A stretch of DNA of 64,000 nt from Lapillicoccus jejuensis (GTDB lineage: Bacteria; Actinomycetota; Actinomycetes; Actinomycetales; Dermatophilaceae). The stretch is from the NCBI RefSeq assembly GCF_006715055.1, contig NZ_VFMN01000001.1, positions 3,906,001 to 3,970,000 of the forward strand, in the 5' to 3' direction. Every line of letters starts with the position of its first letter. Within the stretch, counting starts at the first letter, position 1. This document shows, one piece after another, positions 58,220-60,391 of this stretch. A program made the position numbers and the translations under genes. The notes under the pieces were generated by a model. That model was not told the DNA's origin and ran no database searches. It was given only the letters and a program-made list of their open reading frames with translations.

Positions 58220-58801
58220 GTGACGAGCGGGTACGACGCCCGGGTGACCGGCTCCCCCGACACCAGCCTCCTGCGCCCCGGACTGCGGCTCGTCATCGCC
58301 GGCACCGTCGGTCGGGCGTACCGGCCCGACCGCTACTACGCCGGGCCCGGCAACCGGTTCTGGGAGCTGCTCGAGGGCAGCGGGCTGGTCCCCGTGCGGC
58401 TGGACCCGGACCGGGCGGACGAGCTGCCCGCGCACGGAGTCGGGCTCACCGACCTCGTCACCGAGCGCGTCCAGCGACCGCGCGAGGAGCCCGAGGTCGT
58501 CATCCACCGGGCACCCTTCGACCGCGCCGTCCGCCGGGTGCGTCCGCGGGTGGTGGCGTTCGTCAGCAAGACGGCGGCCACGTGGTACGCCCGGGGCGCG
58601 GGGCAGCGCCTCCCCCGCGGGTACGGCGAGCTGTCGTGGACGGTCGCCGGCGTCCCGGCCTTCGTCTTGCCGGGGCCGTCGGGGGCCAACAACGGCATGC
58701 CGGTCCAGCTGCGGCTGGCGCTGTGGACCGACCTGGCCGACTACCTCGAGCACCTAGAGCACCTTGAGGCGCAGGACCACACGGCCGATGGGCTACCGTG
58801 A
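58220..58801 (+). CDS. Uracil-DNA glycosylase superfamily protein (Mug-like)
   Basis: A 193-residue protein. LRLVIAGTVGRAYRPDRYYAGPGNRFWELLEGSGL is the N-terminal motif and FVLPGPSGANNGM the C-terminal His-less loop seen in Mug/TDG-like families. HGVGLTDLVTERV lies between. The classical catalytic Asn of Mug (GINPG) is replaced by GTVGR, so activity and target (uracil, hypoxanthine or mismatched thymine) are uncertain. GTG at 58220 has a strong AGGAGGG six bases upstream. It is divergent from the LLM gene. Confidence 0.78.
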   Translation: MTSGYDARVTGSPDTSLLRPGLRLVIAGTVGRAYRPDRYYAGPGNRFWELLEGSGLVPVRLDPDRADELPAHGVGLTDLVTERVQRPREEPEVVIHRAPFDRAVRRVRPRVVAFVSKTAATWYARGAGQRLPRGYGELSWTVAGVPAFVLPGPSGANNGMPVQLRLALWTDLADYLEHLEHLEAQDHTADGLP

Positions 58802-58826: not shown

Positions 58827-58844
58827 TATCTCATATATGAGATA
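58827..58844. promoter_or_regulatory. Perfect 18-bp AT-rich palindrome TATCTCATATATGAGATA at the murA-like start
   Basis: It is symmetric over all 18 bases and ends two bases before the GTG start. It contains TATATG seven bases before the start (candidate -10). Fourteen A/T in 18 bp is exceptional in this genome. The encoded protein carries an XRE DNA-binding domain, so self-binding is likely. Confidence 0.75.
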
Positions 58845-58846
58845 AC

Positions 58847-60391
58847 GTGACCGTCATGACCGTCACGGACACCTACCTCGTGCGCATCGGCTCCCTCATC
58901 CGGGACGCGCGGCGCCACAAGGGCCTGACCCAGGCCGAGCTCGCCTCCTCGCTGCAGACCAGCCAGAGCGCGGTCGCGCGGATCGAGCAGGGCCAGCAGA
59001 ACCTCAGCCTCGAGATGCTGGCGCGGATCGGCGAGAGCCTCGACTCGGAGTTCGTCTCCCTCGGCTCGTCGGGCCCGCAGCACCTGCGCATCGTCGGCGG
59101 ACAGAAGCTGCACGGCGCCATCGACGTCAAGACGAGCAAGAACGCCGCCGTCGCGCTCCTGTGCGCCTCGCTGCTCAACCGGGGGCGCACGACGCTGCGC
59201 AACCTCGCCCGGATCGAGGAGGTCAACCGCATCCTCGAGGTCCTCGGCTCGATCGGCGTGAAGACCCGCTGGCTGCCCGGGACCAGCGACCTCGAGATCG
59301 TGCCGCCGGCGCAGCTCGACCTCGACGCGATCGACGTCGAGGCGGCGCGCCGCACGCGGACCGTCATCATGTTCCTCGGTCCGCTGCTTCACGACCTCGA
59401 CCGGTTCCACCTGCCCTACGCCGGTGGCTGCGACCTCGGCACCCGCACCGTCGAGCCGCACATGGCGGCGCTGCGCCCGTTCGGGCTCGACGTCGTCGCG
59501 ACGCAGGGGTTCTACGAGGCGGCGGTCGACCGCTCCCGCAGCCCGCAGCGGGCGATCGTCCTCACCGAGCGCGGCGACACCGTCACCGAGAACGTGCTCA
59601 TGGCCGCAGCCCGGCACGACGGCGTCACCGTCATCCGCAACGCCTCGCCGAACTACATGGTCCAGGACCTCTGCTTCTTCCTGCAGCAGCTCGGCGTCGG
59701 CATCGAGGGCATCGGGACGACGACGCTCACCGTCACCGGTCGCAGCATGATCGACGTCGACGTGGAGTTCTCCCCCTCGGAGGACCCGATCGAGGCGATG
59801 AGCCTCGTGGCCGCCGCCGTCGTCACCGAGTCGCAGATCACCATCCGCCGGGTGCCGATCGAGTTCATGGAGATCGAGCTGGCGACCCTCGAGGGAATGG
59901 GGATGCGCTACGAGGTCTCCGAGGAGTACACGTCGTACAACGGGCACACGCGCCTGGTCGACCTCACGACCATCCCCGGCCCGCTCACGGCGCCGATCGA
60001 CAAGATCCACCCGCTGCCGTTCCCCGGGCTCAACATCGACAACCTGCCCTTCTTCGCGCTCATCGGCGCCATGGCCGAGGGCACGACGATGCTGCACGAC
60101 TGGGTCTACGAGAACCGGGCCATCTACCTCACCGAGCTGACCAAGGTCGGCGGCAAGGTCCAGCTGCTCGACCCGCACCGGGTGCTCATCGAGGGCCCGA
60201 CCCGCTGGCGCGCCGCCGAGGTCATGTGCCCGCCGGCGCTGCGCCCCGGCGTGGTCGTGCTGCTGGCGATGCTCGCCGCGCCGGGCACGTCGGTGCTGCG
60301 CAACGTCTACGTCATCAACCGCGGGTACGAGGACCTCGCGGAACGCCTCAACGCGCTCGGCGCCACCATCGAGGTCTTCCGCGACATCTGA
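58847..60391 (+). CDS. UDP-GlcNAc 1-carboxyvinyltransferase (MurA) homologue fused to an N-terminal XRE HTH
   Basis: A 514-residue two-part protein. Residues 13-68 are an XRE helix-turn-helix (LIRDARRHKGLTQAELASSLQTSQSAVARIEQG). Residues ~78-514 are the EPSP-synthase-like fold of MurA with Lys98-Asn99 in SKNAAV, catalytic Cys195 in GGCDLGTRTVEPH and the C-terminal NRGYEDLAERLNALGA Arg motif, so transferase activity looks intact. It is about 70 residues longer than normal MurA. MurA makes enolpyruvyl-UDP-GlcNAc for peptidoglycan. The genome presumably has a standard murA elsewhere. GTG at 58847 directly after the palindrome implies leaderless, self-regulated expression. Confidence 0.9.
   Translation: MTVMTVTDTYLVRIGSLIRDARRHKGLTQAELASSLQTSQSAVARIEQGQQNLSLEMLARIGESLDSEFVSLGSSGPQHLRIVGGQKLHGAIDVKTSKNAAVALLCASLLNRGRTTLRNLARIEEVNRILEVLGSIGVKTRWLPGTSDLEIVPPAQLDLDAIDVEAARRTRTVIMFLGPLLHDLDRFHLPYAGGCDLGTRTVEPHMAALRPFGLDVVATQGFYEAAVDRSRSPQRAIVLTERGDTVTENVLMAAARHDGVTVIRNASPNYMVQDLCFFLQQLGVGIEGIGTTTLTVTGRSMIDVDVEFSPSEDPIEAMSLVAAAVVTESQITIRRVPIEFMEIELATLEGMGMRYEVSEEYTSYNGHTRLVDLTTIPGPLTAPIDKIHPLPFPGLNIDNLPFFALIGAMAEGTTMLHDWVYENRAIYLTELTKVGGKVQLLDPHRVLIEGPTRWRAAEVMCPPALRPGVVVLLAMLAAPGTSVLRNVYVINRGYEDLAERLNALGATIEVFRDI

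Follow-up and report, generated by a model that had tools for sequence, protein, structure and literature searches.

Presumed first committed enzyme of cell-wall precursor synthesis very probably carries a self-repressing DNA-binding domain in many soil actinobacteria

The window analysed here is a stretch of 64,000 nucleotides, bases 3906001–3970000 of the 4,579,077-base, one-contig genome of Lapillicoccus jejuensis. Near its end lies a forward-strand gene, 58847–60391 with its stop codon in the limits given by an earlier sequence-only reading and the list of open reading frames, whose product joins two domains. An XRE helix-turn-helix (HTH) domain is encoded at 58898–59044 (+), a linker at 59045–59074 (+), and a MurA/EPSP-synthase-type domain, assigned by Pfam, NCBIfam and structures, at 59096–60388 (+), with the Pfam match ending at 60349. 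Pfam places HTH_3 at residues 18–66 of the protein (E 5e-11) and EPSP_synthase at residues 84–501 (E 4e-45), which bears out the fusion of an XRE HTH to a MurA-type enzyme that the sequence-only reading had described. The XRE-type HTH lies above curated cut-offs in two models, HTH_3 (42.8 bits vs. 23) and HTH_31 (39 vs. 27). Within it, the segment TSQSAVARIE (58958–58987 (+); residues 35–44 counted from the ATG at 58856) is assigned as the recognition helix by its covariation with the operator described below, and by residue alignment the codon at 59429–59431 (+) encodes Cys192, the equivalent of E. coli MurA Cys115. At the end of the HTH and in the linker, L62, D63, V67, P74, L77 and R78 are invariant across 26 proteins.

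Directly 5' of the fusion gene, 58223–58801 (+) encodes a protein of the uracil-DNA-glycosylase superfamily, above the cut-off of Pfam UDG and below those of the NCBIfam mug models. A fixed operon partner was rejected, because neighbours vary among the seven loci inspected; across 80 loci, fadB lies near the fusion in 16 and aconitase in 46.

Just upstream of the coding sequence is an 18-bp palindrome, TATCTCATATATGAGATA, at 58827–58844, which we regard as the operator on account of its uniqueness, its conservation upstream of the fusion and its covariation with the helix. The sequence-only reading had called it perfect and AT-rich, and both descriptions stand. The window holds four perfect palindromes of at least 18 bp, against a mean of 2.25 in 20 mononucleotide shuffles, and this is the only one with at least 70% AT (none in the 20 shuffles). 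With up to three mismatches allowed, TATCTCATATATGAGATA occurs once in the window, vs. 0 in 100 shuffles, and at one place in the whole genome. The sequence-only reading had advised looking for the same palindrome at murA-related or other genes; neither the search with up to three mismatches nor a whole-genome scan with a relaxed pattern found a second site in the source genome besides 58827–58844, and a wider regulon there was therefore rejected. So was a chance repeat, since the palindrome is unique in the genome and conserved in relatives.

That conservation, on which the sequence-only reading had staked its proposal, is extensive. A near-consensus site (score 11–12 of 12) lies upstream of the fusion in 213 of 227 loci. 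The operator scores of these loci were 12 in 170, 11 in 43, 10 in 7, 8 in 5 and 7 in 2; since each is the best placement within up to 220 nt, with misses scoring 7–10, the score alone is no test. A scan of named genomes also gave the best 80 of 585 relatives (74–85% identity, nearly full length), which come from Dermatophilaceae-type genera, Streptomyces, Nocardioidaceae and metagenome-assembled genomes (MAGs), and most of these 80 have the site just upstream. The fusion is not universal: at E ≤1e-90, a draw of 396 genomes across the actinobacterial phylum held it in 16, and a draw of 118 across the class in 25; besides these draws the search covered named genomes. Exact ATCTCANNNNTGAGAT occurs in 12 of the 25 fusion-bearing class genomes, each time directly upstream of the fusion gene, and only one extra exact site was found in all 25 (in G073). 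The 93 fusion-less class genomes include 11 that together hold 12 scattered exact ATCTCANNNNTGAGAT sites.

The position of the site relative to the promoter is equally regular. For this comparison we used those 177 of 191 longer loci whose operator scored 11 or 12. In 171 of them, operator base 17 is the first base of a TANNNT hexamer; in the window it is TAACGT (58843–58848 (+)), a predicted -10 element whose first two bases are the operator's last two, so that the palindrome does overlap the -10 as first described. No -35 hexamer upstream of the site is conserved in the consensus line of the aligned loci. The first in-frame ATG or GTG lies 10 or 11 nt past the operator in 143 of the 177 loci. 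In the window, as in ten other loci, the first candidate start is a GTG 2 nt past the operator (58847); the window's ATG at 58856–58858 (+) lies 11 nt past the palindrome and 7 nt past the -10 element, and from the start spacing across the 177 loci this ATG is the likely true start. The earlier statement that the site ends two bases before the start is thus correct for GTG 58847, but that codon is the less likely of the two. With the ATG only 7 nt past the -10 element, transcription would likely begin at the start codon, giving a transcript that is probably leaderless, and the same spacing would place the operator in the spacer, with two bases in common with the -10.

Helix and operator vary together. 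Where the helix segment [TS]SQ[SG]A carries Ser (193 unique loci), 182 loci have ATCTCA as the left half-site, 8 have AACTCA and 3 have neither; where it carries Gly, the left half is AACTCA in 15 of 15 unique loci (Fisher p 2e-17, uncorrected for kinship). All seven unique loci in which the helix is degraded or the HTH missing are without the site, and only 3 of 208 unique loci with an intact helix lack a good left half. Because the 215 "unique" loci may hold one genome twice, changes on a tree are a better measure than such counts. In a 191-row FastTree tree built from the MurA domain only, which counts changes rather than losses, Ser/Gly changes five times and the half-site T/A six times. 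The two make five independent pairs on the best tree, two of them on starred branches, the only ones for which direction was tallied, and there they never change in opposite directions. The helix state changes five times, with four starred-branch pairs, again never opposite ways; the degraded class on the tree includes L258, also without a site, which is outside the 227 loci. With two Ser/Gly pairs and four helix-loss pairs on starred branches, the sign tests fall short of significance.

The degraded-helix cases comprise all four genomes examined of genus g3 (L111, L180, L181 and L182), a member of family f29 (L219/L247, genome G135), and L217/L246 and L258 from genus g341. L179 lacks the HTH altogether, its frame apparently starting seven codons before the linker; its congener L149 keeps both the HTH and a perfect site. 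An intact recognition helix without a site was found at L014, a single good half-site at L012, one good and one weak half-site at L133, L229 and L230–L232, and a changed left half-site at L110 and L138. On this comparative evidence, which is strong for the predicted binding, the fused HTH very probably pairs with the 18-bp site. Given that pairing, the geometry of the promoter makes repression very likely. The self-binding and self-repression proposed at the outset are in this way well supported by comparison (conservation, helix covariation and co-loss), the repressive sign being read from geometry.

We then considered the enzyme half. By sequence, MurAs are the closest solved structures (E 7e-52), with NikO weaker (E 6e-20). 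The protein scores above the cut-off of the NCBIfam MurA subfamily NF006873 (321.5 vs. 297 bits) and below that of the murA equivalog TIGR01072 (305.9 vs. 392.7 bits). An AlphaFold2 model built from 26 sequences has a mean pLDDT of 85.2, with values below 50 at residues 1–5, 64–72 (in the linker), 191–197, 388–390 and 486–489. It aligns with C. jejuni MurA over 414 residues (Z 45.1, rmsd 2.0), compared with Z 39.9 for NikO and at most 34.8 for AroA-type entries. The predicted fold is that of MurA over the whole enzyme domain.

We compared the residues of 104 fusion proteins, the window's and those of 103 loci, with later loci and the frame-broken L111 excluded. In E. coli numbering, K22, N23, R91, C115, R120, D305, R331, R371 and R397, each of which we take to be a catalytic or PEP-site residue, are unchanged in 104 of 104. 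On the UDP side, K160E, S162G, V163D, G164T, P121T, L124P, R232P and D369P are found in all 104, the placement of D369 beside an insertion being uncertain, and 103 have lost D123, 88 of them having E instead. The available text of PMC8698320 assigns positions S162, V163 and G164 to the diphosphate region. The intact active site claimed in the sequence-only reading is therefore true of the chemistry half only, and with the UDP side failing the comparison the protein is best classed as a MurA-like branch that presumably works as a MurA. Position 115 is Asp in six of six aligned HTH-less actinobacterial MurAs (L002 and L112–L116). Asp there is of the fosfomycin-insensitive type; Cys takes its place in the fusion and also in L266, a further MurA without an HTH.

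To judge the role of the enzyme, we counted other MurA copies. Counts of genomes with a sole MurA use only sets in which all candidates were scored (G171 excepted), because more than 12 first-look candidates can hide a second MurA, and some of the genomes so counted are incomplete assemblies. In Mumia's family (f29, which includes Mumia quercus), 58 of 61 genomes hold the fusion, including three with it in pieces (G148, G152 and G154) and one with a fragment (G119). Mumia quercus is placed there because G136 of f29 and G545, the genome of L021, share their two PF00275 coordinates. Of the 58, 42 yielded no MurA besides the fusion, and 16 have both (G171, with 24 of its 28 candidates scored, is counted here). 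Restricted to good-quality genomes (≥90% complete, ≤5% contamination), no other MurA was found in 29 of 43. Counts of PF00275 proteins gave the fusion and an AroA-like protein only in 7 of 7 genomes of a smaller set from the same family, in 18 of 20 genomes of another set, where G604 has a second MurA, and in 8 of the 20 genomes behind named loci. These eight, which include a MAG (L046) and an uncultured isolate (L027), are Mumia quercus, a Nocardioidaceae MAG, Piscicoccus, Janibacter, Mobilicoccus, Ornithinimicrobium, Phycicoccus sp. CSK15P-2 and Serinicoccus. Seven genomes were checked directly, and in all seven the remaining PF00275 protein is AroA, scoring above the TIGR01356 cut-off; beyond those seven it was assigned to AroA by its score or by having escaped the fusion query. 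In G660, rated 100% complete, the fusion is the single PF00275 protein and there is no AroA match.

The source genome does have a second murA, as the sequence-only reading had suggested checking: L002 (G000:C1:2917309-2918553), which lacks an HTH. Unlike it, G588, of the window's own genus, yielded no second MurA. Nor was another MurA found in the genomes whose fusion has a degraded or missing HTH (G619, G583, G654, G135, G634, G659 and G676), so the enzyme half appears to be retained when the regulatory half is lost. Many relatives yielded no MurA but the fusion, which points to an enzyme that also regulates itself rather than a regulator with a vestigial enzyme. A degenerate enzyme was rejected on the same ground and because the catalytic residues are kept in 104 of 104. 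From the invariant catalytic residues and the genomes with no other MurA found, we consider it highly probable that the enzyme half has MurA activity. On the UDP side, either UDP-GlcNAc would be held differently or the acceptor would differ, and the same genomes favour the former.

L111 (G081:C1:1261840-1263365), its genome's only MurA found, is read in two frames with a break near residue 385–390; the gene is unbroken in three congeners, and the break may be a sequencing error, a pseudogene or frameshifting. In Nostocoides jenkinsii (G553, L013), adjacent PF00275 fragments at C1:2441072-2441981, matching profile positions 1–170 and 297–417, have the appearance of a second family member in decay, with an intact fusion gene elsewhere in the genome.

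In Streptomyces the orthologue is very likely murA2 (SCO5998; sven5810 / vnz_28735), judging from the aconitase neighbourhood and the promoter motif. Of 56 Streptomyces loci, 41 include aconitase within the fetched sequence, and in four that were inspected it is divergent and about 0.46–0.62 kb upstream; SCO5998 (MurA2) adjoins aconitase SCO5999 (PMC12161575, available text). S. venezuelae murA2 is described as belonging to the Group II genes of BldM-WhiI and as showing a BldM-WhiI footprint (PMC4125116, available text). Read on the opposite strand and with up to three mismatches allowed, the BldM-WhiI consensus TGnnCCGnnCGGGTGA was found no more than 70 bp upstream of the site in 42 of 55 Streptomyces loci (10% in shuffles of the same stretches) and in 15 of 145 other loci (7% in shuffles), 11 of the 145 carrying group code g24 and so being probably Streptomyces. 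In 34 of the 55 the motif starts 28–30 bp before the site, which would place a developmental activator site ahead of the operator in Streptomyces. The consensus is unlike the palindrome, its matches lie upstream of it, and the window promoter lacks the motif, with five mismatches to TGnnCCGnnCGGGTGA at best. Published excerpts add a SigB-dependent promoter for SCO5998 from a two-plasmid screen (PMC8346170), a predicted DmdR1 (iron) site at the Streptomyces promoter region (PMC12161575), and the failure of murA2 overexpression to reproduce the exploration defect of whiI overexpression (PMC11005364). In Streptomyces loci such as L066, the operator is within the intergenic region shared with divergent aconitase, the place of the predicted DmdR1 site. 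As far as the available portions go, this murA2 literature speaks of external control (BldM-WhiI, SigB and predicted DmdR1) and leaves the HTH, the palindrome and autoregulation unmentioned.

Taken together, the fusion is probably a working MurA joined to its own single-target repressor. We propose that two fusion molecules would bind the 18-bp palindrome through their N-terminal XRE domains, presumably as a dimer. The bound palindrome would fill the spacer and share two bases with the -10 element of a leaderless promoter, and the bound protein would block RNA polymerase at its own promoter, so that the enzyme level might be kept constant. A tentative extension of the self-repressor explanation, not a competitor to it and close to the sensor suggested by the sequence-only reading, is that the protein is a ligand-gated trigger enzyme of the PutA, NadR or BirA kind in which UDP-GlcNAc, PEP or product at the MurA site alters DNA binding and so reports precursor supply. 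Enzyme and repressor domain share one polypeptide wherever the site is found, the six residues at the HTH end and in the linker (L62, D63, V67, P74, L77 and R78) are invariant in 26 proteins, and fusion and site are kept even in genomes with another MurA, all of which suit such gating; yet linker residues 64–72 are of low model confidence, no computed result points to coupling of active site and HTH, and plain concentration-dependent autorepression requires no ligand. If gating occurred, active-site occupancy by precursors might set the grip of the protein on its own leaderless promoter, and in lineages such as Mumia and Janibacter the fusion might be the whole supply of enolpyruvyl-UDP-GlcNAc, a picture we regard as speculative.

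The chemistry itself could be otherwise. NikO uses an acceptor other than UDP-GlcNAc, and the replacement of S162, V163, G164, P121, L124, R232 and D369 in every fusion protein, like the missed TIGR01072 cut-off, would suit a NikO-like enzyme with a secondary role in the cell wall. Such an enzyme is unlikely, since in the many genomes with no other MurA found something must make enolpyruvyl-UDP-GlcNAc, NF006873 is exceeded, and NikO is a weaker match than the MurAs both by sequence and by structure. Somewhat less likely still is an HTH that activates its own promoter in positive autoregulation. XRE proteins can activate, and the lack of a conserved -35 hexamer upstream of the site would be in keeping with an activated promoter, but the site lies in the spacer with bases common to the -10, the usual position for repressors, and in Streptomyces the BldM-WhiI-like motif, which in 34 of 55 loci starts 28–30 bp ahead of the site, suggests that activation has another source there. 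It is highly improbable that the palindrome belongs to another regulator and the HTH to other targets: the intact helix of L014 without a site, and BldM-WhiI and predicted DmdR1 at the Streptomyces promoter (PMC4125116 and PMC12161575, available text), are what this would lead one to expect, but the palindrome covaries and is co-lost with the fusion's own recognition helix, and the BldM-WhiI consensus has a different sequence, its matches lying upstream of the palindrome.

If the self-repressor explanation is right, a single chain would feed back directly on transcription where peptidoglycan synthesis is committed, Streptomyces murA2, a BldM-WhiI developmental gene, would have an extra layer of control, and the behaviour of fosfomycin is predicted to differ between the Cys115 fusion and the Asp115 MurA in the same cell. 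Were precursor sensing also to occur, fosfomycin, which targets Cys115, would alter transcription too. Relatives without the HTH or the recognition helix offer natural controls. Judging from sequence comparison, the presumed first committed enzyme of cell-wall precursor synthesis in many soil actinobacteria very probably carries a self-repressing DNA-binding domain.

Among the matches listed in the open-access literature, and in the portions available, no MurA with a fused HTH or with autoregulation of this kind is described; actinobacteria are known to regulate MurA as a protein, reportedly through CwlM in mycobacteria, for instance. The fusion shares the fold and the nine catalytic/PEP residues of the E. 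coli enzyme with canonical MurA (E. coli murA; L002), which in contrast has no HTH and differs in its UDP-side residues, L002 having Asp at position 115 where the fusion has Cys. PutA, BirA and NadR are autoregulating trigger enzymes. Like them, the fusion carries an enzyme and a DNA-binding domain in one chain; they act on their own promoters, and by comparison the fusion's promoter carries the predicted operator of the fused domain. It differs from them in its enzyme, and a single site was found in the source genome. The HTH resembles those of the HipB and Y4mF-type XRE antitoxins, its match to TIGR03070 couple_hipB (E 1e-14, 54.3 bits) falling below the cut-off of 71.65. The HipB operator, TATCCN8GGATA (PMC3920265, available text), has the same length and the same outer arms, TATC...GATA, as the fusion's site. 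However, HipB and Y4mF are paired with a toxin and have four sites, whereas the HTH described here is joined to an enzyme and has one.
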